Assembly: GCF_000316645.1 (NCBI RefSeq)
Contig: NC_019684.1
Location: forward strand, 558,001-622,000
Reading direction: 5' to 3'
From: Nostoc sp. PCC 7524
GTDB taxonomy: Bacteria > Cyanobacteriota > Cyanobacteriia > Cyanobacteriales > Nostocaceae
Length of the DNA: 64,000 bases
Shown here: one piece after another, positions 7,885-50,073 of the stretch
Layout: every line of letters begins with the position of its first letter
Position numbering within the stretch: position 1 is the stretch's first letter
The notes under the pieces: model-generated
Databases searched by the model: none
Told to the model about the DNA's origin: nothing
What the model saw: only the letters and a program-made list of their open reading frames with translations
Translations under genes and position numbers: made by a program

Positions 7885-10800
7885 ATGAAAAAAATTAACA
7901 GTGAGGATGCCGCTTGGTATCGTGCAGTATCACTAACAGAAAGAATTGCGGCTATGTCGCTAACAGCACCAGCGAATGTTGATTTGGGACAGCGACGACT
8001 CCAGCAATGGCGGATGCAATCTCCTTTCATGAATGAGACTTTGTTTGTCCAAAGATTAGCAATAGATGGTTTAAAGGTAGATGATTTTTGTTACTTATTA
8101 GGGCAAACAGCACCACAAATTCCACAAGCTTGGTTAGGGAAATTGACGGCAGTTTTCAGTGATTCTGGGGATGAGGAGATGATAGAAATACAAGGTTTGC
8201 CCCATCCTCATCTGGGATTGCTAAATGCGATCGCACCCTGGATTCATCAAGGTATGATGCAATTGAGGGCGGGGGTTAATAACCTACAAAATATACCTAT
8301 TAATATCAGTAATATTGACAGTATTTTTTTACAAGGCTTACCAGAACAACTATTATTCATGCTCCAGCCCACCTTGGTACTAGAACTCAATGTAGCAAGG
8401 TTACAAGGATTATTAACAGGTGATACTGCCGAGGAGAGATTTTCTAGCTTTGTGCAACGGTTGCTAACGGGGGAAGCGAGGCTAATGCTTTGGCAAGAAT
8501 ACCCTGTGTTAGCACGGCTAACTATAGAAGAAATTCAGCGATGGGTAACAACTAGCTTAGAATTTCTGCAACGTCTTGGCGATGATTGGGAAGAAATATG
8601 TCAGCACTTCCAGCCAGATAACCCCGGTAAACTGATCAAAATTCAACGGGGTGCAGGGGATAGTCATCATGGTGGTAGGTCTGTTTTTATACTGAAATTT
8701 GAGAGTGGTTGGCAGTTAGTTTATAAGCCCCGTTCCCTAGCTGTAGATGGGCATTTTCAAGAATTATTACTCTGGTTAAATCAACAAGGTACTCATCCCC
8801 CCTTTAAAACCCTAAAAATTCTCAACCGGGGTGATTATGGTTGGATGGAATTTGTCAAAGCGCAAGAATGTACTTCCTTGGAGGAAATTGAGCGGTTTTA
8901 TCAGCGTCAAGGCGGTTACTTAGCCTTGTTATATGTTTTATCAGCTACAGACTTTCACTTTGAAAACTTAGTCGCTGTCGGCGAACACCCCATACTAATT
9001 GATTTAGAATCTCTATTTCATCCCCACAGCCATGAAGCCACAACCACAGCCGCCGCTACCTTAGATAGAGAAATGATTGCAGATTCCGTATTGCGGGTAG
9101 GTTTATTACCTCAGTTAGTCTGGGGAAATACCCAAGCAGCCGGAATTGATTTGAGTGGCTTGGGTGGTGCGGCTGGACAAGTTACACCAGAAAGAGTCCC
9201 CCAGTTAGAGAAGATGGGGACTGATACCATGCGAATTGTCCGCCGACAGGTGGTATTAGCAGGTAGTCAGAATCGCCCCACACTCAACGATAAGGAGGTG
9301 AATGTACAAGCCTATACACCAGCTATTATCCAAGGATTTACAGATGTTTACCGCACCCTTTTACAACATCGTCAAGAATTACTGAAGATATTAGAGAGAT
9401 TTGCGGCTGATGAGGTGCGTGTAGTGCTGCGTCCGAGTCGAAGTTATGCTTTACTACTGCGGGAAAGCTATCACCCGGATGTGTTGCGCGATGCCTTAGA
9501 GCGCGATCGCCTGTTTGATAAACTGTGGGTAGACGTACAAAATCGTCCCATTCTCAGTCAAGTTATTAGGGCGGAACGTCAAGCATTATGGCAAGGTGAT
9601 ATTCCCTTATTTACCACCAATCCCCAATCCCGCGACTTATGGAGTCTAGATACTGGTTTACATTTGCCCAATTTTTTCACCCAGTCGGGAATGGAATTAG
9701 TTTACCATCGCATCCAACAACTCAGCGAAGGAGACTTGCAGCGTCAGCAATGGTTTATTCAGTCAGCTTTGGCTACCTTGGGGATAAATACTAATACTGA
9801 TCAACATCAAGTCAAACACTCAGCTAGTATTATTCACTCCCAAATTTCCGTCCCCCACTCACCACTCACAGCAGCTTGTATAATTGCTGACCGTCTAGAA
9901 CTCCTCGCCCATAAAAGCAGTGAATTAATTAATTGGATGGGTGTCACCGTCACCAACAATCATCAATGGACATTAGCCCCCTTGGGAACAGATTTTTATG
10001 AAGGTGTACCAGGAATAGCTTTTTTCCTAGCTTATTTAGGAGAAATTACGCAAAATTATCACTACACCCGTCTAGCACAAGTCACCATCAAAACTTTACA
10101 ACAGCAGTTAATTAGAGATGCCGACACAATCAAATTCATCGGCGCATTTAGTGGCTGGGGAGGAATTATTTACACCTACACTCACTTAGGTACACTCTGG
10201 CAAAATCCTGATTTAATTGCTGATGCAGTCACCTTAGTCGAAAAACTTCCTCCCTTGATAGCCCAAGATGAACAGTTAGATATCATCGCAGGTGCGGCTG
10301 GTTGCATTGCTAGCTTGTTAAGTTTATACCAAGTTTTTCCCGATGACTTAATTTTAGATGTCGCCTTAGAGTGTGGAGAACATCTTCTCAACCAAGCCCA
10401 AATCATAGATAATTGCATCGGCTGGATTTCCCCCAGTGGTGGAAAACAACCCCTCACAGGATTTGCTCATGGTGCGGCTGGGTTTGCATCGGTGCTGTTA
10501 GAATTAGCCCAAATTACTGGCAAACAAGAATTTCAAACCGCAGCTATCAAAGCAATTAACTACGAACGCAGACATTTTTCCCCAGAGGCGGGGAACTGGC
10601 TAGACTTACGCACCCCCGCACAAAACCAGTTTATGACAGCGTGGTGTCATGGTGCGCCAGGGATTGGCTTGGGACGCTGGCGTGCCTTAAAATACCTAGA
10701 TGATCCAGAAATTCACAAAGAAATTGCGATCGCCATTCATACCACCATCAACCAAGGATTCGGGGATAATCAATGTCTGTGTCATGGAGACTTAGGCAAC

Positions 10801-11097
10801 CTAGACTTATTATTACTCGCCAGCAAAATCTTCAACCAGCCAGAACTCACATCCCACACATCCCCCATCACCAACCAAATTCTAAATCAAATCCACCAAC
10901 ATAACTTTTATTGTGGCGTACCCCTAGCCATAGAAACCCCAGGACTCATGACAGGACTAGCAGGTATAGGCTACGGATGCTTACGCCTAGCCCATCCTGA
11001 AAAAATCCCCTCCATCCTCCTCCTAGAACCCCCTCGTACCAATTCAAAATTCAAAATTCAAAATTCAAAATTAAGAAAGTTCGACTCTCGATCATAG
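7885..11097 (+). CDS. lanM: Class II lanthipeptide synthetase LanM
   Basis: 1,070 residues, normal for LanM. The N-terminal half is the dehydratase (DUF4135), which phosphorylates and dehydrates Ser/Thr of a precursor peptide; visible segments are RGAGDSHHGGRS (about 256-267), LVYKPRSLAVD and ATDFHFENLVA with ILIDLESLFHP. The C-terminal half is the LanC-like cyclase that forms thioether rings. Its zinc ligands are C921 (WCHGAPG) and C966-H967 (CLCHGD), with HGAAGFA upstream. The gene heads the cluster lanM, exporter, precursor, HlyD, and the precursor is of the matching mersacidin type. The last 20 or so residues (TNSKFKIQNSK...) come from an intergenic-type ATTCAAA repeat that has entered the end of the gene. 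Upstream are a Fur-like box and a second palindrome. Confidence 0.95.
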   Translation: MKKINSEDAAWYRAVSLTERIAAMSLTAPANVDLGQRRLQQWRMQSPFMNETLFVQRLAIDGLKVDDFCYLLGQTAPQIPQAWLGKLTAVFSDSGDEEMIEIQGLPHPHLGLLNAIAPWIHQGMMQLRAGVNNLQNIPINISNIDSIFLQGLPEQLLFMLQPTLVLELNVARLQGLLTGDTAEERFSSFVQRLLTGEARLMLWQEYPVLARLTIEEIQRWVTTSLEFLQRLGDDWEEICQHFQPDNPGKLIKIQRGAGDSHHGGRSVFILKFESGWQLVYKPRSLAVDGHFQELLLWLNQQGTHPPFKTLKILNRGDYGWMEFVKAQECTSLEEIERFYQRQGGYLALLYVLSATDFHFENLVAVGEHPILIDLESLFHPHSHEATTTAAATLDREMIADSVLRVGLLPQLVWGNTQAAGIDLSGLGGAAGQVTPERVPQLEKMGTDTMRIVRRQVVLAGSQNRPTLNDKEVNVQAYTPAIIQGFTDVYRTLLQHRQELLKILERFAADEVRVVLRPSRSYALLLRESYHPDVLRDALERDRLFDKLWVDVQNRPILSQVIRAERQALWQGDIPLFTTNPQSRDLWSLDTGLHLPNFFTQSGMELVYHRIQQLSEGDLQRQQWFIQSALATLGINTNTDQHQVKHSASIIHSQISVPHSPLTAACIIADRLELLAHKSSELINWMGVTVTNNHQWTLAPLGTDFYEGVPGIAFFLAYLGEITQNYHYTRLAQVTIKTLQQQLIRDADTIKFIGAFSGWGGIIYTYTHLGTLWQNPDLIADAVTLVEKLPPLIAQDEQLDIIAGAAGCIASLLSLYQVFPDDLILDVALECGEHLLNQAQIIDNCIGWISPSGGKQPLTGFAHGAAGFASVLLELAQITGKQEFQTAAIKAINYERRHFSPEAGNWLDLRTPAQNQFMTAWCHGAPGIGLGRWRALKYLDDPEIHKEIAIAIHTTINQGFGDNQCLCHGDLGNLDLLLLASKIFNQPELTSHTSPITNQILNQIHQHNFYCGVPLAIETPGLMTGLAGIGYGCLRLAHPEKIPSILLLEPPRTNSKFKIQNSKLRKFDSRS
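11041..11076. repeat. ATTCAAA tandem repeat at the 3' end of lanM
   Basis: About four tandem copies of a 9-base AATTCAAAA unit (ATTCAAA core). Similar short repeats are scattered between genes in heterocystous cyanobacteria; here the copies are translated as the C-terminal tail of LanM. Confidence 0.7.
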
Positions 11098-11149
11098 TTT
11101 TTTTGTGAATTGGTATCAACTCAACTCCTACCCTCTGCATCTGTGCGTG

Positions 11150-13309
11150 ATGAAATACCCCGTCGTCCTACAACACAACGAAGAAGACTGTGGCCCCGCC
11201 TGTCTAGCCACCATCTGCAAATACTACGGCCAGCTATTCACCATCAACCGCACCCGTGAAGCCGCAGGAACAGGACAATTAGGAACAACTTTACTCAACC
11301 TCAAACAAGGGGCGCAAGTTTTAGGCTTCCATGCGCGGGGAGTGAAAGCTGTTATCGACTTAGTAGACAAGCAACAGATACCCCTCCCAGCCATCATTCA
11401 CTGGAAAGGTAATCATTGGACTGTATTATATGGACGCAGAGGCAAAAAATATATCGTCGCTGATCCCTTGGTGGGTGTGCGTTATTTAACCAAAGAAGCA
11501 CTGTTAACTGGTTGGAGTAACGGGGTGATGCTGCTACTAGAACCCCGTCCCGATTTTCTTTCTCAAGCAGATGATCAAGATAAAGTCGGGGGTTGGAAAC
11601 GCTTAGGGCAACGTCTATTTAGTTACCGTCATATCTTAGCAGAAGCCTTACTACTTAACTTTGTCGTCGGCTTATTAGCATTACTTTCGCCATTTCTCAT
11701 CCAAATTCTGACGGATGATGTTTTGGTGAGAGGAGACACCCAATTACTCACGGGTATAGCCTTGGGAGTCCTAGCGATGAGTTTAATTAGTAGTGCTTTG
11801 CAATGGGTACAAGGAAACTTAGTAGCACACTTTGCCCATCGTTTGGAATTAGATTTAGTCTTAGAATTTGGCAGAACCATTTTACGTTTGCCTTTGTCTT
11901 ATTATGAATCTCGCCGCAGTGGTGAAGTGGTGAGTAGATTACGGGATATTCAAACCATTAATCAATTAGTGTCGCAAGTGGGTGTGACTTTACCCAGTCA
12001 ATTATTAATTGCGATCGCTTCTTTAGCTTTGATGCTATTTTATAGCCCTAAACTCACCTTCGCCTCATTATTCATTGCTTTATTCATGCCCCTATCCACA
12101 GTGGTTTTCTTCCCCAGTTTGCAACAGAAAATCCGCAGTGTTCTGGGAATAGCCGCCGAAAATCAAGGTATTTTAGTGGAAACCTTCAAAGGTGCATTAG
12201 TTGTCAAAACCACCAATGCAGCACCAGAATTTTGGCAAGAATTTCAAACTCGTTACGGTAGACAAGCTAACTTCATGTTTCGTACCGTGCAGATTGTCAT
12301 TACTAATAATATTTTTTCTGGTTGGGTAGCCACATCGGGAGGGATAATTTTGCTGTGGTTCGGCAGTACATTGGTAATTAATCGAGAAATCACAATAGGG
12401 CAACTATTAGCTTTTAATAGTTTAAATACTCAAATTATTGCCTTAGTCAATACAGTCGTTGGTTTTGTCACCGAATTTACCCGCGCCCAAGCCGCTACAG
12501 AACGTTTAAATGAAGTCATTCAATCTACCCCAGAATTTCCTGAAGTCAATCACAAACCCTTTGTCAACATTCCCGACAATGCAGAGATTATTTGCAGTTA
12601 TCTCAATTTTCACCATCCTGGGAGAGTCGATTTATTACAAGATTTCTCCTTGACTCTCCCAGGGGGAAAAGTGATAGCCATTATTGGGAAATCAGGGTGT
12701 GGTAAAAGTACCCTCGCTAAACTCCTCGCTGGGTTGTACACCCCCCAATCAGGGAATATTCGTATTCACCGCTACAACCTCCAAGATTTATCACCCGACT
12801 GCTTACGCCAACAAGTAATTCTAGTTCCTCAAGAAGCTCATTTTTGGAGTCGTTCAATTTTAGATAATTTGTGTCTTGGTAATCCCCAAGTCAGTTTTGA
12901 ACAAGTCGTGACAGCGTGTCAAGTAGCAGATGCAGACACTTTTATCAGTAAATTACCAGAGAAATACCAAACCATCTTAGGGGAATTTGGAGCTAACCTT
13001 TCCGGCGGACAAAGACAAAGATTAGCTATAGCCAGAGGTATCATTACCCATCCACCAATTTTGATTTTAGATGAATCCACCGCCGGACTAGACCCCAAGA
13101 GCGAAAGTACAGTTTTAGATCAATTACTAGCCTATCGCCAAGGTAAAACCACCATCCTCATTAGCCATCGTCCCCAAGTCATCAAACGTGCAGACTGGAT
13201 TGTACTCTTAGAAGCTGGACAACTCAAACTCCAAGGTACTCCATCCGAACTACTCAACATCCCCGGTGAACACCTAGATTTTCTCCAATCTTTGCGTTCC
13301 TCCGCGTAA
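11150..13309 (+). CDS. lanT: Peptidase C39 ABC exporter for lanthipeptide (LanT)
   Basis: 719 residues from the ATG at 11150; an upstream TTG at 11105 would add 15 residues that do not look like family. The N-terminal C39 peptidase cuts precursors after a double glycine; its catalytic residues are C14 (EEDCGPAC), H89 (GNHWTVLY) and D105 (VADPLVGV). A six-helix ABC membrane domain follows (about residues 150-430). The ATPase has Walker A GKSGCGKST at 513-521, the signature LSGGQRQR and Walker B ILILDESTAGLD. It starts 52 bases after lanM and is probably in the same operon. Its expected job is to remove the leader of the precursor at 13486 and export the core. The HlyD-type gene downstream would be its periplasmic adaptor. 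Confidence 0.95.
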   Translation: MKYPVVLQHNEEDCGPACLATICKYYGQLFTINRTREAAGTGQLGTTLLNLKQGAQVLGFHARGVKAVIDLVDKQQIPLPAIIHWKGNHWTVLYGRRGKKYIVADPLVGVRYLTKEALLTGWSNGVMLLLEPRPDFLSQADDQDKVGGWKRLGQRLFSYRHILAEALLLNFVVGLLALLSPFLIQILTDDVLVRGDTQLLTGIALGVLAMSLISSALQWVQGNLVAHFAHRLELDLVLEFGRTILRLPLSYYESRRSGEVVSRLRDIQTINQLVSQVGVTLPSQLLIAIASLALMLFYSPKLTFASLFIALFMPLSTVVFFPSLQQKIRSVLGIAAENQGILVETFKGALVVKTTNAAPEFWQEFQTRYGRQANFMFRTVQIVITNNIFSGWVATSGGIILLWFGSTLVINREITIGQLLAFNSLNTQIIALVNTVVGFVTEFTRAQAATERLNEVIQSTPEFPEVNHKPFVNIPDNAEIICSYLNFHHPGRVDLLQDFSLTLPGGKVIAIIGKSGCGKSTLAKLLAGLYTPQSGNIRIHRYNLQDLSPDCLRQQVILVPQEAHFWSRSILDNLCLGNPQVSFEQVVTACQVADADTFISKLPEKYQTILGEFGANLSGGQRQRLAIARGIITHPPILILDESTAGLDPKSESTVLDQLLAYRQGKTTILISHRPQVIKRADWIVLLEAGQLKLQGTPSELLNIPGEHLDFLQSLRSSA

Positions 13310-13350
13310 ACCTCCACACTCCTCTGCGTTTCAAAATAATACTTGACTAC

Positions 13351-13375
13351 AAGAATGATAATGATTATTATTCTT
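13351..13375 (+). promoter_or_regulatory. Fur-box-like operator before the lanthipeptide precursor
   Basis: TGATAAT-G-ATTATTA at 13356-13370 differs from the Fur 7-1-7 consensus at one base. It lies in a longer palindrome, AAGAATnATAATnATTATnATTCTT, spanning 13351-13375. It is 110 bases upstream of the precursor ATG, which indicates a separate iron-controlled promoter for the precursor and HlyD genes. Confidence 0.7.
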
Positions 13376-13485
13376 ATGTTGATGAAATTGTCATCAATAA
13401 TACTTTTTTACTCGTGATTTCTAGGGAATAAACACTAGGAATGGCGAAATAGTCATGACCTAATCCCCAATATTGGAGGTATATT

Positions 13486-13710
13486 ATGTCTGTGGATATC
13501 ATTCGTGCTTGGAAAGACGAAGAATACCGTCAAAGCCTCAGCACCGAACAATTGCAACAGCTACCAGCAAACCCGGCTGGCTTGATTGAATTGAATGATG
13601 AAGATATGTCATCTGTTTCTGGCGGATGTACAACCTGTGGTAATCCTCTGCATACACCAATCATCAAATGCAAAGCTGTATTTGGTGAATTGGGCGATAT
13701 CAGTGCCTAA
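13486..13710 (+). CDS. lanA: Mersacidin/lichenicidin-type lanthipeptide precursor
   Basis: 74 residues behind a strong GGAGG ribosome site. The leader, residues 1-47, has the family opening (VDIIRAWKDEEYRQSLS), the PANPAGLIEL segment and the cleavage site SVSGG. The predicted core is residues 48-74: CTTCGNPLHTPIIKC (48-62) followed by KAVFGELGDISA. It has three Cys (48, 51, 62) and three Thr plus one Ser that LanM could dehydrate, so up to three thioether rings are possible. A histidine lies between the rings. It stands between the C39 exporter and the HlyD gene and has its own Fur-like operator. The modified product and its activity are unknown; the core is not one I recognise. Confidence 0.93.
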   Translation: MSVDIIRAWKDEEYRQSLSTEQLQQLPANPAGLIELNDEDMSSVSGGCTTCGNPLHTPIIKCKAVFGELGDISA

Positions 13711-13734
13711 TTGGTTGTAGTTGCAGCTACATTC

Positions 13735-13800
13735 TTTTGTAGTGGGAACTTCAGCCTTAATTTTAAAAAAAGACAAAGGACTAAAGTCCTGACTACAAAC
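13735..13800. repeat. Imperfect palindromic interspersed repeat
   Basis: TTTTGTAGTGGGAACTTCAG at the left is matched by the inverted arm GACTAAAGTCCTGACTACAAAC at the right, around an A/T-rich centre. It resembles the cleaner copy at 34554-34599, so both are members of one hairpin repeat family. It separates the precursor from the HlyD gene and may act as a terminator or as an RNA-stabilising hairpin. Confidence 0.6.
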
Positions 13801-13812
13801 TAAATTGAATTG

Positions 13813-15315
13813 ATGGTAGAAGTTAAACAGTTTAGTTCGGCGTTTCTTCCTAGCGCGAAATCTGATGAATACCTACCTAACATTGGTATTTGGACACGAC
13901 TAGGAGGATTTTTTCTTGTGGGTGTGGTGGGTGTGGCTGTGAGTGTCGCAGCCTTGACAAGATATCACCAAACAGTGAAAGCACCTGGTTCTGTGCGTCC
14001 ATCTGGAGAATTACGTATAGTTCAGACAGCAATAGCAGGAACAGTGAAAAAAACTTTTGTGAGAGAAAATCAGCTTGTTAACCAAGGTGAATCTTTAGTA
14101 ATTCTTGATGACACTCAACTACAAACTAAAAAAAGTCAACTACAAGGAAATATTCAAAAATCTCAGCAACAACTCACCCAAATCAATGCTCAAATTCTCG
14201 CTTTAGATCAGCAAATTGCTACGGAAAATCAACGCGGTGAACGTGTGATATCCTCAGCTAAGGCTGAACTCAACTTGACACAAAGAGAGTATGCAGATAA
14301 ACAAATTGCGGTGAGTAGTGAATGGCAAGAAGCTGAGGCTAATCTGAAAATTGCTCAAAATGAATTGCAGCGATCGCAAGCTGATTTAAAATCAATTCAA
14401 GCTAATCTCAAAAGTGCAGAGGCTGCATATCAAGCGGCAATTGTCAAGCGCGATCGCTATCAAATCATTGCCCAATCTGGTTCAATTTCGCAAAACCAAC
14501 TAGAAGAAGTACAACTGGCAGCAATTCAACAAGCACAAGTTTTAGAATCCCAAAAAGCCGCCGTAGAAAGTCAAAAACAAGTCATTCAGCAAAAACAGCA
14601 AGCTTTAACAGCAGCAGTAGCCAACCGGGTGAAAGCCTCCTCAGCATTAAATCCCAGTGATGCAGTGATGACTATTGCTCAAGAAAAAATTGCCACTGAA
14701 CAGGCTAGTAAACAAAATAATTTAGCTCGTTTACGCCAAGAAAAAGAAAGTTTATTACAGCGTCAAACGGAAATTCAAGACACAATTAATAATACCAAAA
14801 AAGAACTGAAACAGATTTTAGCTGATATTCAAAAAACTATCATTCGGGCTTCAGCTACAGGCCATATTCTCAAACTAGAATTGCGAAACCCTGGACAGGT
14901 GCTACAGTTGGGAGAGGCGATCGCTCATATTGCCCCCCAAAATACACCTTTAATTATTAAAGCCCGTGTAGCATCTGCTGACATTGGTAAAGTACAAATT
15001 TGTCAATCACAAAAAGTTGCTGACTGTCAACAAGGTAAAGTACAAATCAGATTTTCTGCTTATCCCTATCCCGATTACGGCACACTTAAAGGTGCAGTGA
15101 GAGAAATTACTGCTGATGCAATTACTACAGCAAATAACTCATCAATACCTACCTATTATGATGTAACAATTGAACCAGAAGTAAATTATTTGCAAAATAA
15201 TTTGCAAAAGTATTATATTCAAGCAGGTATGGAAGTCACAACAGATATCCTAGCTCAAGAAGAAACTCTATTAACATTCATTCTCAGAAAAACTAGATTA
15301 CTTACTAATTTATAG
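13813..15315 (+). CDS. HlyD-family membrane fusion protein of the lanthipeptide cluster
   Basis: 500 residues from the ATG at 13813 (a TTG directly before it is ignored). There is one N-terminal membrane helix (about 32-50, GGFFLVGVVGVAVSVAAL), then a biotinyl-lipoyl-like half (VKAPGSVRPSGELRIVQ, VRENQLVNQGESLVILD). A long coiled-coil hairpin rich in Gln and Ala (about 105-340) follows, then the second lipoyl half and a beta-barrel domain (ILKLELRNPGQVLQLGEAIAHIAP). Such adaptors join an inner-membrane ABC exporter to an outer-membrane channel. Its place after the C39 exporter and precursor implies it completes export of the lanthipeptide. No TolC-like gene is in the window. Confidence 0.9.
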   Translation: MVEVKQFSSAFLPSAKSDEYLPNIGIWTRLGGFFLVGVVGVAVSVAALTRYHQTVKAPGSVRPSGELRIVQTAIAGTVKKTFVRENQLVNQGESLVILDDTQLQTKKSQLQGNIQKSQQQLTQINAQILALDQQIATENQRGERVISSAKAELNLTQREYADKQIAVSSEWQEAEANLKIAQNELQRSQADLKSIQANLKSAEAAYQAAIVKRDRYQIIAQSGSISQNQLEEVQLAAIQQAQVLESQKAAVESQKQVIQQKQQALTAAVANRVKASSALNPSDAVMTIAQEKIATEQASKQNNLARLRQEKESLLQRQTEIQDTINNTKKELKQILADIQKTIIRASATGHILKLELRNPGQVLQLGEAIAHIAPQNTPLIIKARVASADIGKVQICQSQKVADCQQGKVQIRFSAYPYPDYGTLKGAVREITADAITTANNSSIPTYYDVTIEPEVNYLQNNLQKYYIQAGMEVTTDILAQEETLLTFILRKTRLLTNL

Positions 15316-42011: not shown

Positions 42012-42257
42012 CTAAAGGTAGAACCAGTTATAAATAGACCTTGAATAATCTATGGTATAAATTTTGTTATCGTGGAAATTGAACGAGTAAGAACCAGTAT
42101 AGTAGGTATTCTCAGTACCATTTATACCACCACTAATATTGGTTACATGAACGTACATATACCCTCCCGATACAGTTTCAGCTTGAAATGAAGGTAGTTC
42201 GTGTATCAACAACCCTATATTATGAACATATAATTGAGAACTTACTATTTGATCCAT
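42012..42257 (-). CDS. Double-glycine leader peptide, member 1
   Basis: 81 residues. The leader, residues 1-32, ends QAETVSGG, so a predicted cleavage at 32/33 leaves a 49-residue core that opens YMYVHVTNISGGINGTENTYY and ends DNKIYTIDYSRSIYNWFYL. The core has no Cys, is rich in Tyr, Asn and Ser, and shares its end motif with three neighbours. I do not recognise a named family. It may be a bacteriocin-like or signalling peptide exported by the DevBCA-type exporter nearby. An AGGAC ribosome site precedes the ATG. It converges on the SDR gene. Confidence 0.75.
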   Translation of the reverse strand: MDQIVSSQLYVHNIGLLIHELPSFQAETVSGGYMYVHVTNISGGINGTENTYYTGSYSFNFHDNKIYTIDYSRSIYNWFYL

Positions 42258-42495
42258 TGTCCTACTTGAGTGGTTAGGTTTGTGATTTAGGACATTTCAG
42301 TTGTTAGCTGAAATGGCTTACAACATTTTGGCTGAGATGTAATGTTTGAACAACAATTGTGCTGATATAATGCAGGTAAATTTCCCAGATTTCCTACATT
42401 TATTAAATGGAGTAATTTAATAACTACTCTGTTACGCTAACTATCGTAAGCTCTATGAGCAAGTTTTTACTTTCAAGTCTCAACAAGTGTCGAAA

Positions 42496-42762
42496 CTAAT
42501 AAATAAATGTATTATAGATTGACCTTGAATAGTCTATTGTATTAATTTTATTATCGTGATAGCTAACCGAATATGCACCACCAGCTTCAATTGTATTATC
42601 TCCTCCTGAATTCTTGATATTTACACTATCAGTAATGTTATTAATATAAAATCCGTAGGGATAACCACCTCCTGCTATAGTCTCTGCTTCCTCTGAAGTT
42701 AGATTGTAGATAAATGTCTTTATAGGATTAATATATAAACCAGTAATTACAATTTTAGCCAT
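42496..42762 (-). CDS. Double-glycine leader peptide, member 2
   Basis: 88 residues from the ATG at 42762, which follows a GGAGGA ribosome site; the longer frame to 42909 is rejected because it lacks one. Leader: MAKIVITGLYINPIKTF then NLTSEEAETIAGG, with GG at 31-32. Core: GYPYGFYINNITDSVNIKN, an internal EAGG, then HDNKINTIDYSRSIYN. It is a close tandem duplicate of member 3; their upstream 45 bases are also alike (AAGTAAGTAG-TGTCATGAATTGCGTA). Function is inferred only from the leader and context. Confidence 0.78.
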   Translation of the reverse strand: MAKIVITGLYINPIKTFIYNLTSEEAETIAGGGYPYGFYINNITDSVNIKNSGGDNTIEAGGAYSVSYHDNKINTIDYSRSIYNTFIY

Positions 42763-42925
42763 GATTTTAGTTCCTCCGAAGTAAGTAGCTGTCATGAATT
42801 GCGTACACCGAAACACAATAAATCTTAAGTTAGAGAGTATTTTCGCTAAATACTCTGCTACACTTATTATCATCAGTCCTATCAATAATTTTCTAGTTTC
42901 AATTCTCAATAATTTCTACAATCTA

Positions 42926-43189
42926 CTAAATAAATCTGTTATGGATTGACCTTGAATAGTCTATTGTATTGATTTTATTATCGTGGTTGCTGACAGAATA
43001 TATACCACCAGCTTCAATTGTATTATCTCCTCCTAAATTCTTGATACTCACCTCATCAGTAACATTATTAATATAAAATCTGGAGGGATAACCACCTCCT
43101 GTTATAGTATCTACTTCCCCTGTAGTCAAATCGTACATAAATGTCTTTATAGGACTAAGATGTAAACTGGAAAGGACAATTTTAGTCAT
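42926..43189 (-). CDS. Double-glycine leader peptide, member 3
   Basis: 87 residues from the second of two adjacent ATGs (MTKIV). Leader ends GEVDTITGG with GG at 31-32. The core GYPSRFYINNVTDEVSIKN, internal EAGG and HDNKINTIDYSRSIHN closely match member 2, which marks a recent tandem duplication. No Cys, no membrane helix. It is the first gene of the leftward peptide group and has about 720 bases of upstream DNA, shared with the rightward exporter operon. Confidence 0.78.
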   Translation of the reverse strand: MTKIVLSSLHLSPIKTFMYDLTTGEVDTITGGGYPSRFYINNVTDEVSIKNLGGDNTIEAGGIYSVSNHDNKINTIDYSRSIHNRFI

Positions 43190-43192
43190 CAT

Positions 43193-43913
43193 TTTATTTC
43201 CTCACAAGTAAGTAGTTGTCATGAATTGCGTAAACCCAAATATATAAAAAACCTTCACTCAAAATTGACCTTTAATTTATTGTATTAATTAACTTGCTTA
43301 CAAGGTTATTATATATGAAACTCCATTGTGCAACCATTATTTTACGATATTTTTAAGACATAAAACAATTTTTTTGTCCATAAAAAAGATTGTCAAATTA
43401 GCAGGTTTTATCTAAAATAAACCAGTCAAATAACTACATAAGTAAATTGGCTACGCCTCCCATAAGGGATACAGAAATCAAATTGGATTGCTTGGAGCGA
43501 TCGCTGTTGTTAAGTGCAAGTGCAATGGGGTAAATCTATTGCAAACATTACAGCTTTCGGAAGTGATTCCTAAAAAGCTTTTCCATATAATCATTCTTAA
43601 CACACCACAACCAAGGTGTTCATTGGATAAGGTGATTCCTTAGCTTCGACAGATAATTATAGATAAAAACAAGTTGTAATGTATGAAACTTACTCAGTAC
43701 ATATCATCAACAATCTAGTTGATAAAAAATTACAACGCATCATATTTTGCTTTTGTACATATCTTAGTAATCATCTCTATTTTGTCATTTTCTTTCGTGA
43801 GATTTAGTCTCCAATCCCGCATTGATTCATGATAGTGATATTTAGCTAATGCTTAATAAGCATACAATTATCTGAAATAGAATTCAATTTGCTCCTTATT
43901 TAGAGAAAAAATA
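43193..43913. other. Divergent intergenic region of the peptide cluster
   Basis: About 720 A/T-rich bases between leftward peptide genes and the rightward operon, so promoters for both should lie here. One GCGATCGC-type site is near 43498. I saw no gene, no convincing named operator and no riboswitch. Confidence 0.5.
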
Positions 43914-44186
43914 ATGGCTAAAACAATTACTCCTGACTCACCTGCAATTGATGTCAAGGCTTTGCTAAATGAGATACTTCCAGTGCAAGCAGAGACTGTA
44001 TTAGGGGGTGCTACTATTGTCGATTTAACTAATATTCAGGATGGTATAAATACCATTTCAAATAGCTTGAGTATGCTCTCTGTCAGTGGCAACAAGCTCT
44101 TTACTATTGACTTCTCCAGAACGACTATCAATCTGGTAATAGTGTTACCTCAATCAGAACCAACTGTTCTAAGTTGGCTTCTGTAG
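43914..44186 (+). CDS. Double-glycine leader peptide, member 4
   Basis: 90 residues. Leader ends EILPVQAETVLGG with GG at 31-32, exactly as in the other three. The core reads ATIVDLTNIQDGINTISN and later GNKLFTIDFSRTTIN, a diverged form of the NKIxTIDYSRS end motif, plus a distinct hydrophobic tail (LVIVLPQSEPTVLSWLL). It is the first gene of the rightward unit and is followed after 93 bases by the DevB-type adaptor, which is the best evidence linking the peptide family to this exporter. Confidence 0.78.
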   Translation: MAKTITPDSPAIDVKALLNEILPVQAETVLGGATIVDLTNIQDGINTISNSLSMLSVSGNKLFTIDFSRTTINLVIVLPQSEPTVLSWLL

Positions 44187-44279
44187 ATTGAATTAATTAA
44201 GCAGATGGCATAGATATCTGCACAAGCTTTCTACTGTTTTGATCCATTTATAGTATTCACAAACTGGAATGAAATAATT

Positions 44280-45467
44280 ATGGTATATAAACAAAGGCAG
44301 CCGTTGACAAAACCTAACGGTTGGTGGTCGATCATGTTGACAGCCTCTACTGCTGTAATTGCTAGTATAATTTCCGTCTACAGCTTTTCACAATATCAGT
44401 TGAAATCTCAATTGGACTCACCAACACGCAGCACTTCTCCTGTTATCACTGCTGTTACAGCTTTAGGATATCTAGAACCGGAAGGAAAAGTTATTCGTTT
44501 ATCTGCTCCTAATTCTCAAGGAGGTGTTCGAGTAGCAAAGCTCCTTGTCAATCAAGGAAGTTCGGTACGTCAGGGACAAACAGTTGCTATTCTTGATAGT
44601 TATTATCCTCGTCTTGCAGCCTTAGAAAAAGCACAAAAACAAGTCCTAGTTGCTCAAGCTACTCTTAATCAAGTGAAAGCTGGTGCAAAAACTGGAGATA
44701 TCTCTGCACAGAAAGCAATCATTGCTCGCCTGGAAGCTGATTTGGATGGAGCGATTTCTGTACAAAAAGCCACAATTACTCGTCTAAAAGCTGAGTTACG
44801 TAATGTGGAAAGCGAAAATCAGCGATATCAACAGTTATACAAAATAGGTGCGATTTCAGCTTCTGATTCAGAAGCGAAGAATTTACGTGTCGAAATTATT
44901 CAACAACAGTACAAAGAAGCTAAAGCTGATCATAAGCGGATTATAGAAAACATTCAAAAGCAGCTAATGGAGGCCAAAGCCAAGTTTAAGAGTATTACAG
45001 AAGTTCGTCCTACTGATGTGCAAGTAGCGCAAGCTAATGTCGAGAGTGCAAAAGCTTCAGTGAAACAGGCTCAGGCAGAGTTGGAACTAAGTTCTGTGCG
45101 ATCGCCTATATCTGGACAAATCCTGAAAATTAATACTCGTCCTGGAGAAATTGTCAGTGCTACAGGAATAGCAGACTTAGGTCGTACACAGCAGATGTAT
45201 GTAGTAGCAGAAATTTATGAAACCAATATTAAAAAAGTACGTCTAGGTCAGTCAGCCGTTATTACTAGCGATGCGTTACCAAAGGAACTGCACGGAACAG
45301 TTACAGATATTGGTTTACAAGTCGGCAAACAAAATATTTTCAATAATTTACAAGCTGACACAGATAACAAAATAGTTGAGGTCAAAATTCGGATCAATAA
45401 TATGGAGGATCTCAAACAAATTACTGCTCTGACTAACTTACAAGTGCAGGTACGCATTGATATATAG
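44280..45467 (+). CDS. devB-like: DevB-type HlyD membrane fusion protein
   Basis: 395 residues. One N-terminal membrane helix (IMLTASTAVIASIISVYSF), then the lipoyl half ALGYLEPEGKVIRLSAPN with VRVAKLLVNQGSSVRQGQTVAILDS. A coiled coil (about 115-265) follows, then the second half SPISGQILKINTRPGEIVS and a beta barrel. ALGYLEPEG is characteristic of DevB, the adaptor of the cyanobacterial DevBCA exporter. It should connect DevC/DevA in the inner membrane to an outer-membrane channel such as HgdD (TolC). It lies between a GG peptide and devC. Confidence 0.92.
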   Translation: MVYKQRQPLTKPNGWWSIMLTASTAVIASIISVYSFSQYQLKSQLDSPTRSTSPVITAVTALGYLEPEGKVIRLSAPNSQGGVRVAKLLVNQGSSVRQGQTVAILDSYYPRLAALEKAQKQVLVAQATLNQVKAGAKTGDISAQKAIIARLEADLDGAISVQKATITRLKAELRNVESENQRYQQLYKIGAISASDSEAKNLRVEIIQQQYKEAKADHKRIIENIQKQLMEAKAKFKSITEVRPTDVQVAQANVESAKASVKQAQAELELSSVRSPISGQILKINTRPGEIVSATGIADLGRTQQMYVVAEIYETNIKKVRLGQSAVITSDALPKELHGTVTDIGLQVGKQNIFNNLQADTDNKIVEVKIRINNMEDLKQITALTNLQVQVRIDI

Positions 45468-45733
45468 AGTTACAAAGAAAGTTTTGTTAATACATCAAAC
45501 AAAAAATCTTGTAATATTTAACAGATAACTAACTTTAATTGGAAAATAAAGTTAACTATTACTAGATAGCATTTACGTGTTTAAGTTACAGCATAAAGAT
45601 TATTACATTGCAATCAGCAGTCTTGCTTTAATTAGGATAGGAGCTTAATTTGTGCTGATTTTAGTGAAGTCTAGTGTCTATTGTTCAAGTATTTTAGTCA
45701 GCAATATTATCTTAATATATTTGGGTTTCTAAG

Positions 45734-46906
45734 ATGATTTTAACTATATCTTTAGCTTGGCTACAACTGGCTAGACAAAAAGTTCGCTTTTGTGTAGCCT
45801 TAACGGGAATTGCTTTTATTGCAGTATTAATGTTTGTACAAATTGGTTTCCAAGATGCTCTATATACCAGTGCTACACAGCTGCATCATAATCTCGAAGG
45901 CGATTTATTTATCATTAGCACTCAATATCAATCTTTGACATTACATCAAAGCTTTTCACATCGGTATTTATATGAAATATTAGGGTTTGATTCTATAGAA
46001 TCAGTTACCCCTTTATATATGCAATTTGCTAAATTAGAAAATTCTATTAATGGATTGAAATTACCAATATATGTTTTAGGCGTTAATCCAGTTAGAACAG
46101 GTTTAAAATTACCAATCAGTCAGGAAAATCTCAGCTTAATACAACTACCATACATGGTTTTATTTGACAGAAATTCCAGACCAGGTTTTGGTTCAATTGT
46201 GCAAGATTTTGAGGAAGGAAGAGATGTAACAGTTGAAATGTTTAATTATACTTCATCAATTGGTCATAAAGTAAAAGTTGGTGGATTATTTAGCCTAGGG
46301 CCATCTTTTGGGGTGGATGGAAATTTAATTGTTAGCGCCTCGACTTTTTTCCAAATATTTCCAGATCGTTCAGCACAAAATGTAGATATAGGCTTAATTA
46401 AACTCAAACCCAATACTAACACCCAAGAATTTTTGGCTCATTTGTCAGCTAAATTGCCTCAAGACGTAATAGCAATTACGCATCAGGATTTTATTAATTT
46501 AGAAAAAAACTATTGGCAGGTCAGAGCGCCTATTGGATTTGTGTTTCAATTGATGGTGACTATGGTATTTATTGTTGGTGTAGTCGTAGTCTATCAAATT
46601 CTTTATAGTAATATCTCTAGTCATTTAGCTGAGTATGCAACTCTCAAAGCAATGGGATTTAAAAATAAATATCTTTTAGTTGTAGTTTTTCAACAGTCTT
46701 TAATCCTAGCACTTTTTGGTTACATACCTGGCTTTGCTATATCTACAGGTTTGTATGATGTAGCAAAAAATACTACTAATTTACCGATTAGTATGAGTGT
46801 AGATAAAGCAGGTATAGTATTAGTCTTTATAATTTTAATGTGCTTGGCATCTGGTTTCATATCTACAAAAAAACTACGTAATGTAGATCCAGCTAACTTT
46901 TTTTAA
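45734..46906 (+). CDS. devC-like: DevC-type ABC exporter permease
   Basis: 390 residues. MacB/FtsX-like layout: an N-terminal helix (FCVALTGIAFIAVLMFVQIGF), a large periplasmic domain (about 45-270), then three C-terminal helices. SLAWLQLARQKVRFCVALTGIAFIAVLMFVQIGF is the typical DevC opening. It is the transmembrane subunit of a DevBCA exporter. A gap of 266 bases separates it from devB, while devA follows after 32 bases. Confidence 0.93.
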   Translation: MILTISLAWLQLARQKVRFCVALTGIAFIAVLMFVQIGFQDALYTSATQLHHNLEGDLFIISTQYQSLTLHQSFSHRYLYEILGFDSIESVTPLYMQFAKLENSINGLKLPIYVLGVNPVRTGLKLPISQENLSLIQLPYMVLFDRNSRPGFGSIVQDFEEGRDVTVEMFNYTSSIGHKVKVGGLFSLGPSFGVDGNLIVSASTFFQIFPDRSAQNVDIGLIKLKPNTNTQEFLAHLSAKLPQDVIAITHQDFINLEKNYWQVRAPIGFVFQLMVTMVFIVGVVVVYQILYSNISSHLAEYATLKAMGFKNKYLLVVVFQQSLILALFGYIPGFAISTGLYDVAKNTTNLPISMSVDKAGIVLVFIILMCLASGFISTKKLRNVDPANFF

Positions 46907-46938
46907 TCTCATTTACTTAACTTAATTTCTTGTGTAAT

Positions 46939-47631
46939 ATGCTCACAACAGACTTTATTGTTAGCATCAGAAACCTTAACCATTACTTTGGTAATCAAAT
47001 ATTGAAAAGTCAAATTCTATTTGATATTAATCTCACGATTAAATATGGAGAAATTGTTACCATGACTGGTCCTTCGGGTTCAGGAAAAACAACCCTGCTG
47101 ACTTTAATTGGTGGATTACGTTCTGTACAGAAGGGGAGTCTAAAATTTCTCAATCAAGAGCTTTATGGGGCTAGTAATGAAAAGTTAGTACAAATACGTA
47201 GTCAGATTGGCTATATTTTTCAATCGCATAACTTACTAAATTTCCTAACATCTCGGCAAAATGTTCAAATATCGCTGGAATTAGACAAAAATATAGATAA
47301 ATTGGAAGCTCGTAGAAAAGCAGAAGCTATGCTCCATGCTGTTAAATTAGGGAATCGAATGAATTATTATCCATCTGAACTGTCTGGAGGCCAAAAGCAA
47401 CGGGTAGCAATTGCCCGTGCTTTAGTAAGACATCCTAAATTAGTTCTGGCTGATGAACCTACTGCTGCATTAGACAGTAAATCGGGGCGAGATATTGTTA
47501 ACCTCATGCAGCAATTAGCTAAGGAACAAAATTGTTCCATCTTAATGGTTACTCATGATAGTCGAATTTTAGATATATCTGATCGAATAATTCATATAGA
47601 GGATGGCCGATTAATTAAAGAAGTTTCCTGA
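46939..47631 (+). CDS. devA-like: DevA-type ABC exporter ATPase
   Basis: 230 residues from the ATG at 46939. Walker A GPSGSGKTT, signature LSGGQKQRVAIARAL, Walker B LVLADEPTAALD and the switch His in MVTHDSRILDISDRI. HYFGNQILKSQILFDINL and the LolD/MacB-like length place it in the DevA group. It powers the exporter. It ends about 140 bases before the predicted outer-membrane protein gene. Confidence 0.94.
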   Translation: MLTTDFIVSIRNLNHYFGNQILKSQILFDINLTIKYGEIVTMTGPSGSGKTTLLTLIGGLRSVQKGSLKFLNQELYGASNEKLVQIRSQIGYIFQSHNLLNFLTSRQNVQISLELDKNIDKLEARRKAEAMLHAVKLGNRMNYYPSELSGGQKQRVAIARALVRHPKLVLADEPTAALDSKSGRDIVNLMQQLAKEQNCSILMVTHDSRILDISDRIIHIEDGRLIKEVS

Positions 47632-47775
47632 CACCTTTACAAAAGATTGTCATGATATCTTAGCGATCAGTTAAGGCTCTATCCTAATTGTCAGAGCCTG
47701 ACTTTTTTCAGAAATATATATAGTAATTACCTGAACATTATTAATACTAATTTAAATTAGTTATTATAGGTTCAA

Positions 47776-50073
47776 ATGATTAATAAATTAGTTCCTTATC
47801 TCAGGCTTGTTAATATAGTTATTATCTTCATATTTATATTAACCAATAATTTCATAGCAGGCAGAGCGAATGCTAAAAAAAAGTCAGACCTAAAACTGCC
47901 AGAATCTAGCAAATTTGTTAACACAATCATAGAAACAAGAACTGAAAATAATTTATTTCTTTTTTTAGACAATTTAAAACCTACAATTATTACACAAGAA
48001 CCTAAGACTATACAATCAAAGATTCATAAGAAGCAGAATCGAAAGCTAATTCTGCAACACAAGAATTTAACACCATTTATTTTAAACGCAATTACTAATA
48101 ATGAATTTAAATATTATTGGAGTATTGATTATCAAGACAAATTTACTGTCCAAAATGCCAATTTTAATTTCATAGAAAACACCAACAAAATTGAATTTTC
48201 AATTAAGTTCTCATCAGAATATTCTGTATTTAACCGATTTGTATTTGCCGATTTTCCCCAACCAGACCAATTTTATTGGGTATTACCTGGCAATCGAATT
48301 GTAGTGGTAAACCGAGGTTGGCAGAGTGGAGTTTTATATCAAGGAGAATCAACAGATGTTCAAACCATACAGAAAATTAGTTTGGATCAAACAATTGGGA
48401 CTATGGAAGCAGCTTTCTCTCTTCCCCAATCTTTCCAAGAATCAACAGATAGTATTAACCAATTTGCTATTGAAGGAATTGTAGAGGAAACAAGTAATCC
48501 AGTAGGTGTTACTGCTGCTCCTATTATTACCGATAGTCAACGTAAGTTATATGACTTAAATTCCTTATATGGTGATGATTTAAGCGAAATACAAAATAAT
48601 TTAGAAGTTAGTCAAAAACTTGAAACCTACAGTTGGCATAGATTGTATTTTAGTTATCCTCAAAATCAAACTTTATTAGAATACGATTCTTCAGAAGCTA
48701 AAGTAACCTACACTAATATTTATGTCAATCCAGGAATGTCTTTATTTTTAACATTTTCTGATAGAAGAATAGATGAATTACAAAGTGCAAATTCTACGCT
48801 AGGAATGCTCGTTGGAGGCATTTTTAGATTAATTGATTTTCCGAATTTAACACAAAGTTTGGAGGAAGCTCAAGAACGTTTCTCCCGACAAGAAAGTTTG
48901 GCAAATTTATACTCTAAAGCCACACCAGAGCAAAGAAGACAAATTTACCAAACACTAAATAGAACCCTATTATTAGGTAATCGTACCAGTGGATTAGAAC
49001 AAATTTCTGGCACAGTATCCTTTCCTAGTATAATTACACCCAATAGCTCCAGTATTTTACAAATACGTACTGGTAATCATCGACGAGCAGTTCAGTTTTT
49101 AGATGAAAGACGTACTTGTAGAAATGAAGTTTCTCATAACAGTTTTGGTGGTTTGACATCTGTTATCTCTCCTGTTTCTGCACAACAAATATCTAACCAT
49201 TCATCAGATACACAGATGGATTTAATTACACTTAATGGTGAGCAGTATGTTCAAAATTGGAGTTCATTTGATATAACATCAGTTCCAATTGATATTCTTT
49301 CGTTCAATATGGCATTTGACTGCCTTGGATCAAGTCAAGATAGTCAACTCATAAGTTATTTACAAACTTTTGATGGATACTTATCTTTACCTGCTATAGA
49401 AGGTTTATGGACTGGTTCTTCTGGCAGATGGAATTACAGTATTAATTTAGGTATGTGGTTTAACCTCAATGCAAACACCGCACTTAATATAACAAATAAT
49501 TTTGGTTTTTTAGAGCCAACACTAGGTATTTATACAAATGGAGCATTGAATTATGTCGATACTCATGTAGAGATTGATGCAGAAGGTGAAACTCAAGCTA
49601 TTACTACCAATATTCCATCCTTGCAATTTGCTTGGAATAGTGCGGCTGATTTTCAAAATCCGGCTTATCTAAATTTGAGCTACTTTTTTTCTAGTCAAGA
49701 TAGAAATAAAAATTATTCTCTATCCACAGCTATTATGCTTATGGATGATCAATACAGTCTTATCCCTTCTGGATTTCTACAGGGTAAATTAGGATTCAAT
49801 ACAGGTTTAGAATTTAGCACTTCTTTAGATATAGGAGAGCAGTTTTTTTACACATTAGAAAGTATTCAACAAGTAAATACTCATTGGTCTTTAGGAATTT
49901 ATCTACAGAACTTTAGAAATATTGATCGAGGTATAAAAAACCGAGATATAAATTTTTCATATGGCTTGATAATTCAGCATGATACCCCAGGTAGTAGTTC
50001 TTTTTGGGAGTCACGTATTGGGATGAATGGAGATATATTTGAAGTCAATTTTGAAGGAGGTGTGAGATTTTGA
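47776..50073 (+). CDS. Large predicted outer-membrane protein, unknown family
   Basis: 765 residues. A signal peptide (VNIVIIFIFILTNNFIAGRANA) is followed by a Lys-rich stretch, then a long beta-rich body. Segments such as WNYSINLGMWFNLNANTALNITNNFG, NLSYFFSSQDRNKNYSLSTAIML and the last residues FEVNFEGGVRF, ending in Phe, fit a beta-barrel inserted by the BAM machinery. The central part contains a helical segment (EEAQERFSRQESLANLYSKATPEQRRQIYQ). I do not recognise the family. It directly follows devA on the same strand, so it may be the outer-membrane or surface partner of this exporter. Confidence 0.72.
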   Translation: MINKLVPYLRLVNIVIIFIFILTNNFIAGRANAKKKSDLKLPESSKFVNTIIETRTENNLFLFLDNLKPTIITQEPKTIQSKIHKKQNRKLILQHKNLTPFILNAITNNEFKYYWSIDYQDKFTVQNANFNFIENTNKIEFSIKFSSEYSVFNRFVFADFPQPDQFYWVLPGNRIVVVNRGWQSGVLYQGESTDVQTIQKISLDQTIGTMEAAFSLPQSFQESTDSINQFAIEGIVEETSNPVGVTAAPIITDSQRKLYDLNSLYGDDLSEIQNNLEVSQKLETYSWHRLYFSYPQNQTLLEYDSSEAKVTYTNIYVNPGMSLFLTFSDRRIDELQSANSTLGMLVGGIFRLIDFPNLTQSLEEAQERFSRQESLANLYSKATPEQRRQIYQTLNRTLLLGNRTSGLEQISGTVSFPSIITPNSSSILQIRTGNHRRAVQFLDERRTCRNEVSHNSFGGLTSVISPVSAQQISNHSSDTQMDLITLNGEQYVQNWSSFDITSVPIDILSFNMAFDCLGSSQDSQLISYLQTFDGYLSLPAIEGLWTGSSGRWNYSINLGMWFNLNANTALNITNNFGFLEPTLGIYTNGALNYVDTHVEIDAEGETQAITTNIPSLQFAWNSAADFQNPAYLNLSYFFSSQDRNKNYSLSTAIMLMDDQYSLIPSGFLQGKLGFNTGLEFSTSLDIGEQFFYTLESIQQVNTHWSLGIYLQNFRNIDRGIKNRDINFSYGLIIQHDTPGSSSFWESRIGMNGDIFEVNFEGGVRF

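Follow-up and report, generated by a model that had tools for sequence, protein, structure and literature searches.

The window analysed here is a 64,000-nucleotide stretch of the Nostoc sp. PCC 7524 genome (contig NC_019684.1, positions 558,001 to 622,000). It encodes four small precursor peptides with double-glycine (GG) leaders, PEP1 to PEP4, and, directly after PEP4, the three subunits of a DevBCA transport complex. PEP4 and the DevBCA clade beside it form a pair that is conserved, exclusive and not due to chance. Linkage of peptide genes to this one branch suggests that the branch handles secreted peptides. In the model that we prefer, with a probability of roughly 0.45, a C39-peptidase ATP-binding cassette (ABC) exporter acting in trans would cleave the precursors and DevBCA would eject the mature cores.

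Pairing of PEP4 with one DevBCA clade

The DevB of the window was searched against 192, and later all 217, genomes of the family. Ten DevB proteins, from 10 of the 217 genomes, share 77–100% identity with it, and a gap separates these from all others (at most 73%). PEP4 lies directly upstream of devB at 10/10 of these clade loci, in three genera, with intervals of 45–251 bp between mechanically defined open reading frame (ORF) ends. By comparison, the peptide profile has no match (E ≤ 0.1) at any of 34 other devB loci taken with 1.5 kb flanks. These control loci are 22 from the family, eight paralogues from the window's own genome (G000, 6.7 Mb) and four from the 217-genome search. In a tree of 38 DevB proteins (8 of the 10 linked ones and 30 others; midpoint root only), the linked proteins fall on one side of a branch with 100/100 support.

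Strict PEP4 orthologues (at least 100 bits) were identified in 12 of the 217 genomes, with a best match of 137–154 bits in each; the next-best genome reaches 64 bits, and G154 also has a second copy at 103 bits. Ten of these genomes are represented by a row in the profile A2, and G517 and G520 are not. Of the 12 PEP4 genomes, 10 carry the DevB clade, which is absent from the remaining 205. Fisher tests give 1e-15 for the clade against PEP4 genomes and 4e-10 for 10/10 against 0/34, both values ignoring shared ancestry. The flanking genes vary among most of the eight loci compared (L097 and L099 have the same flanks), and occurrence is patchy, with PEP4 and the DevB clade present in 3 of the 13 genomes in the window's genus. 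Given the differing flanks and the patchy occurrence, these genes seem to have been passed on together, by descent or by transfer. A further peptide-family gene follows devA in the seven loci of g7 and g27.

The peptide family and its leaders

The first-pass annotation described four small ORFs encoding proteins with GG at residues 31–32, preceded by (A/V)(E/D)T(V/I)x, and with cores that have no Cys and each contain NK(I/L)xTID(Y/F)SR(S/T). ORF calls and translations of PEP1–PEP4 confirm all of these features, at the positions in Table 1. In an alignment of 17 members (A1), GG is present in 17/17 rows and G31, G32, N42, N71, D77 and S79 are invariant. Across 41 loci, GG ends the leader in 101 of 112 profile matches, and the remainder have GS (5), AG (4), GN (1) or DS (1); two more of the 112 read GN, though the profile alignment scored GG. 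The GG is thus kept among the relatives. Ratios of nonsynonymous to synonymous substitution (dN/dS) are 0.08–0.38 for eight orthologous peptide pairs, 0.22 for one pair of co-encoded hydrophobic peptides and 0.62 for PEP2 against PEP3. Such ratios are to be expected if the ORFs are coding genes.

PEP1–PEP4 have no Pfam match at E ≤ 1 and no NCBIfam match above cut-off, the nearest being that of PEP2 to the CTB bacteriocin family NF038167. The suggestion that they constitute a new family of GG-leader peptides is supported. A search of 5.8 billion proteins returned 6 matches with PEP4 and, at E ≤ 1e-3, 12 with PEP2, own sequences counted; two of the 12 are the window's own proteins. Related database proteins bear Nostoc and Anabaena names. 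At E ≤ 0.01, the broad profile A1 matches at least 66 of the 192 family genomes sampled. When 388 genomes were drawn from the whole order, with some genomes of the family omitted, all 30 that match at E ≤ 0.001 belong to this same family.

PEP4 cores from seven loci are mutually alike in all 21 pairwise comparisons (core z 11–34), and the PEP4 leaders fall into two types. Type I (MLQIxDLENNELF...GG) was found in g27, g7, g3 and g26. PEP4 of the window's genus has a type-II leader, which is closer to the leaders of PEP1–PEP3. The type-I leader is common to PEP4 and to short Ala/Gly-rich hydrophobic peptides encoded in the same loci (leader z 11–16), and the cores that follow it are unrelated (z −1.6 to −0.4; seven comparisons at five loci). 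Some residual likeness connects the two leader types (z 2.8–8.5 between PEP4s), as is seen among GG leaders. Judged from these alignments, the leader is a module that is placed before unrelated cores.

Beside the type-I-leader peptides, at 9/9 loci (L086, L090, L091, L095, L097, L099, L100, L263 and L264), are a sigma-factor-like gene, c5 (215 amino acids, aa), and a partner, c6 (232–249 aa). The c5 copy in L097 passes TIGR02937; c6 has no Pfam family at E ≤ 0.01. The two genes adjoin the peptides in the seven loci of g7 and g27 and also in G002 and G025, but not in the three g1 loci.

In hydrophobic peptides of three genomes, Gly-Cys replaces Gly-Gly at the end of the leader (L100 10782–10994, L257 3370–3582 and L258 533–814).

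Exporter contexts

Exporter genes were compared among 41 peptide loci, consisting of the window and 40 chosen from profile matches; two more DevBCA loci (G517 and G520) were added later. Within the stretch examined, DevBC(A) is present at eight of the 41, a C39 exporter with HlyD at six, and neither of the two at 27. The expectation that homologues lie beside DevBCA genes therefore holds for PEP4 (10/10 against 0/34), but not for the broad family (8/41).

The C39 exporters in cis belong to G028, G033, G034, G036, G074 and G078, six genomes that all lack the DevBCA clade. The clearest case is G036 (L098), where two PEP2-like genes, one PEP1-like gene and one PEP4-like gene stand beside HlyD and an exporter of 1039 aa with cNMP, C39 and ABC domains. 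The other five loci have GN or GS in place of GG in the PEP4-like gene (the profile alignment scores GS in two and GN in one). We did not identify a C39 gene in the window's peptide locus or in the stretches of the other nine DevBCA loci. C39 genes are present in 10/10 genomes checked, with 5–12 matches each. G002 and G025 retain the peptide cluster, but there is no DevB, C39 or HlyD gene in 19.9 kb; thus, something acts in trans in these two genomes. Overall, the exporter contexts speak for processing in trans, to which DevBCA would add a further function.

Type-I-like leaders occur directly beside C39 exporters (716–725 aa) with HlyD in G000, G147, G154 and G002 (27–39 bits); a similar match in G025 is at noise level (E 0.4). 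A type-II leader is clearly beside a C39 exporter in G036 only, and weak type-II matches (E 0.001–0.1) lie about 8–11 kb from C39 genes in G002, G113, G136 and G191. The resemblance of the leaders to those of C39 substrates makes a C39 exporter acting in trans the better candidate for cleavage.

Other gene associations were seen at some of the loci. Among the 27 loci with neither exporter, L085 and L092 have import-type ATPases close to the peptides, and L121 (9330–11586) encodes a 375-aa protein that faintly resembles DevB (38 bits), at a distance of 0.8 kb from a peptide-family gene. Near the C39 exporters of L098, L106, L107, L120 and L122 are APH-kinase-like, HopA1-like and M16-peptidase-like cluster members and up to seven small ORFs of about 80 aa, with protein families scanned on the L098 copies only. 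The set of APH-kinase-like, HopA1-like and M16-like proteins is reminiscent of the parts of class V lanthipeptide synthetases.

Possible routes of export

The two-step model starts from four precursors that belong to one family and each bear a double-glycine leader. A C39 exporter whose gene lies at another place in the genome would bind the leader, cut after Gly32 and carry the peptide across the inner membrane. DevBCA of the PEP4-linked clade, working as a MacB-type pump with a TolC homologue (HgdD in the case of Anabaena DevBCA), would then expel the mature cores of 49–58 aa from the periplasm. This second step would be the last stage of export and would also protect the producer. The peptides themselves may be signals, antimicrobials or surface peptides. 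Taken separately, cleavage by a C39 exporter in trans is probable, and so is MacB-style ejection by DevBCA. MacB is reported to act from the periplasm and to have no sufficient channel across the inner membrane, and two of its relatives with adaptors, YknXYZ and AS-48EFGH, shield the producing cells against the peptides that they make (PMC5985334, in excerpt). The DevBCA paralogues of Anabaena seem to use a single TolC homologue, HgdD (PMC8277102, in excerpt). The earlier idea that DevBCA handles these peptides thus keeps its footing in the conserved link to one clade, and is weakened where DevBCA is made the sole exporter.

A number of observations weigh against the two-step model. A second pump could be redundant, as C39 exporters with HlyD would already bridge both membranes. 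The pump clade is missing in 2 of the 12 PEP4 genomes. The nearest C39 gene ends about 29 kb from the window's peptide set and lies within a lanthipeptide cluster. Leader results count against the model too. Among the genomes with type-I-like leaders beside C39 exporters, G000, G147 and G154 carry a type-II leader on PEP4, and G002 and G025 are without clade DevBCA. In G072, G098, G113, G136 and G191, the five DevBCA genomes with type-I leaders that were searched, the type-I leader profile finds no C39-adjacent peptide at E ≤ 1, and the C39 loci of G072, G113 and G191 hold peptides with poor leader scores. No type-II leader is beside a C39 gene in G000 at E ≤ 1. Since the GG consensus is general, likeness to C39-linked leaders says little about which exporter is used. 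Finally, G147 (L088) has devB and devC by PEP4, but no devA was identified by tblastn (E ≤ 1) in 19.9 kb; a comparable lack has been published for HgdBC (PMC6161253, in excerpt). That the C39-linked leader matches fall outside the five searched type-I DevBCA genomes makes the two-step model somewhat less likely and C39-free readings slightly more so.

The alternative that survives best, although we consider it unlikely, is that DevBCA provides immunity only, with a C39 exporter secreting all of the peptides and DevBCA clearing the periplasm of any that return or leak there. MacB-type pumps with adaptors do give self-protection against SDP and AS-48 (PMC5985334, in excerpt), the co-encoded hydrophobic peptides are bacteriocin-like on reading, and absence of the pump from two PEP4 genomes is consistent with a protective role. 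However, the Cys-free cores of PEP1–PEP4 have no evident membrane-active pattern on reading, except for the hydrophobic tail of PEP4, and the pairing is kept in the three g1 loci, where no hydrophobic companion peptide showed up in the scanned stretch.

A second alternative is that DevBCA is the sole exporter, taking GG precursors from the cytoplasm while a stand-alone protease removes the leader, so that no C39 protein would be involved. The strict pairing of PEP4 with devB speaks for this, and C39 genes are absent from the nearest 28 kb around the peptide genes of the window and from the stretches of the other nine loci. Absence of clade DevBCA from the six genomes with C39 in cis looks as though the two exporters replace one another, and no C39-linked type-I-leader peptide was found in the five type-I DevBCA genomes searched. 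Set against this are MacB structures without a sufficient inner-membrane channel (PMC5985334, in excerpt), the presence of the peptides in G002 and G025 without the clade pump, and the loci themselves, in which no recognised protease gene recurs, although the function of c6 is unassigned. We regard sole export as improbable. That this DevBCA branch works as a dedicated double-glycine exporter without C39, giving cyanobacteria a second, MacB-type way to export GG-leader peptides, is likewise rather doubtful; if true, it would give a peptide-based function to a pump class known for glycolipids.

It is more improbable still that the genes share only their regulation, with DevBCA moving a lipid or drug and the peptides being co-expressed surface or signalling products: the known DevBCA substrates are indeed glycolipids and drugs (PMC8277102, in excerpt) and the sigma-factor-like c5 lies by the peptides in type-I-leader loci, but a housekeeping lipid pump would hardly be expected to be confined to PEP4 genomes and to share the patchy occurrence of PEP4 (3/13 genomes in the window's genus), and c5 is not beside the peptides in the three g1 loci.

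These findings point to a likely substrate class for an orphan DevBCA clade, and the substrates of DevBCA would widen from lipids and drugs to ribosomal peptides. The locus offers a compact setting for the question of how filamentous cyanobacteria complete export of, or resist, GG-leader peptides.

The locus and its neighbours

Table 1. Genes of the peptide–DevBCA locus (positions in the window)
Feature	Position	Strand	Description
PEP1	42012..42257	-	81 aa GG-leader precursor; leader 1-32, core 49 aa; profile match 106.6 bits
PEP2	42496..42762	-	88 aa GG-leader precursor; core 56 aa
PEP3	42926..43189	-	87 aa GG-leader precursor; core 55 aa; PEP2 paralogue, 72% identity
PEP4	43914..44186	+	90 aa GG-leader precursor; core 58 aa; family member kept upstream of devB
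devB	44280..45467	+	membrane-fusion protein of the peptide-linked clade; TIGR02971, 328 bits (cut-off 129)
devC	45734..46906	+	FtsX/MacB-type permease; TIGR01185, 422 bits (cut-off 290); PF02687
devA	46930..47631	+	ATPase; TIGR02982, 361 bits (cut-off 296); Walker A GPSGSGKT, signature LSGGQ
barrel-like protein	47776..50073	+	765 aa, predicted outer-membrane barrel; neighbour, probably outside the system

Membership of DevBCA is clear, as devB, devC and devA each score above the curated NCBIfam cut-off. PEP3 may start one Met earlier, at 43192. PEP4 was initially described as the first gene of a unit with devB, devC, devA and the barrel gene. The link of PEP4 to devB stands (10/10 loci), but inclusion of the barrel gene in the same unit as devA is uncertain because a terminator-like site (47690–47702) lies between them. 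Seven such sites occur in the region against a shuffle mean of 3.8 (sd 1.7), which is a mild excess only. A promoter scan of the region gave no excess over shuffles.

The 765-aa protein had also been put forward as the outer-membrane partner of the exporter. It matches no Pfam or NCBIfam family at E ≤ 1, and profile searches from 17 homologues against Pfam and PDB returned nothing convincing. Its last residue, Phe765, is invariant in the 17 homologues; a C-terminal Phe is typical of many outer-membrane barrels. Counting the window's own genome, 61 of 192 family genomes have a homologue. Many of the homologues are longer, at about 800–1000 aa, and have an internal stretch that the window protein lacks around its residue 250. 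The GTDB contig collection gave no confirmed relative, despite the 61/192 of this later genome search. We rejected the protein as a conserved DevBCA partner: neither DevB nor DevC is present at any of 15 fetched homologue loci, and in the four of seven other linked genomes of the 192-genome draw that have both the barrel and the linked DevBCA (G098, G113, G136 and G191), the two are megabases apart or on different contigs. The DevBCA stretches of G517 and G520 contain no barrel homologue, and the gene was seen beside DevBCA in the window's genome only. Seven gene families neighbour the barrel homologues elsewhere. Six of them have no match in the window; the remaining one, the ABC ATPase family d3, hits nothing there beyond devA and one other ATPase gene. 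The role of outer-membrane partner is in any case one for which DevBCA paralogues seem to use HgdD (PMC8277102, in excerpt).

Elsewhere in the window (7885–15315) is a class II lanthipeptide cluster, with LanM at 7885–11097 (TIGR03897), a C39 exporter at 11105–13309, a mersacidin-family precursor at 13486–13710 (TIGR03898) and a HlyD-like protein at 13810–15315. This C39 exporter is not the preferred candidate for processing PEP1–PEP4, as it belongs to the LanM cluster, which has its own precursor.

Comparison with known systems

Among the open-access papers listed, none showed a link between DevBCA and GG-leader peptides. Likeness to known precursor families is slight. PEP2 scores 13.9 bits against the CTB bacteriocin model NF038167, for which the cut-off is 32, and 2 of the 17 members match that model at E ≤ 1; a hydrophobic co-encoded peptide also falls below the cut-off, at 15.3 bits. 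Among the eight NCBIfam families matched by the 17 members at E ≤ 1, there is no NHLP or N11P precursor model.

The cyanobacterial bacteriocin and EbfG clusters with C39-peptidase exporters (PCAT) likewise encode several small GG-leader precursors per cluster (PMC3140520 and PMC4997328, both in excerpt), and members of the present peptide family occur in such clusters in six relatives. Unlike those clusters, the window's peptide locus has DevBCA and no C39 exporter in cis; DevB has 0 mentions in either PMC3140520 or PMC4997328.

MacAB-TolC, YknXYZ and AS-48EFGH also combine a pump of MacB architecture and an adaptor with a link to a ribosomal peptide. The peptides concerned are others (STII, SDP and AS-48), and no GG-leader family is named in the excerpts of PMC5985334 that describe these systems. 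Unlike these pumps, the window's clade has separate DevC and DevA subunits. The same three subunits make up DevBCA-HgdD and its paralogues in Anabaena PCC 7120. Unlike Anabaena DevBCA, which is associated with heterocyst glycolipids and drugs (PMC8277102, in excerpt), the clade represented in the window is tied to peptide genes.

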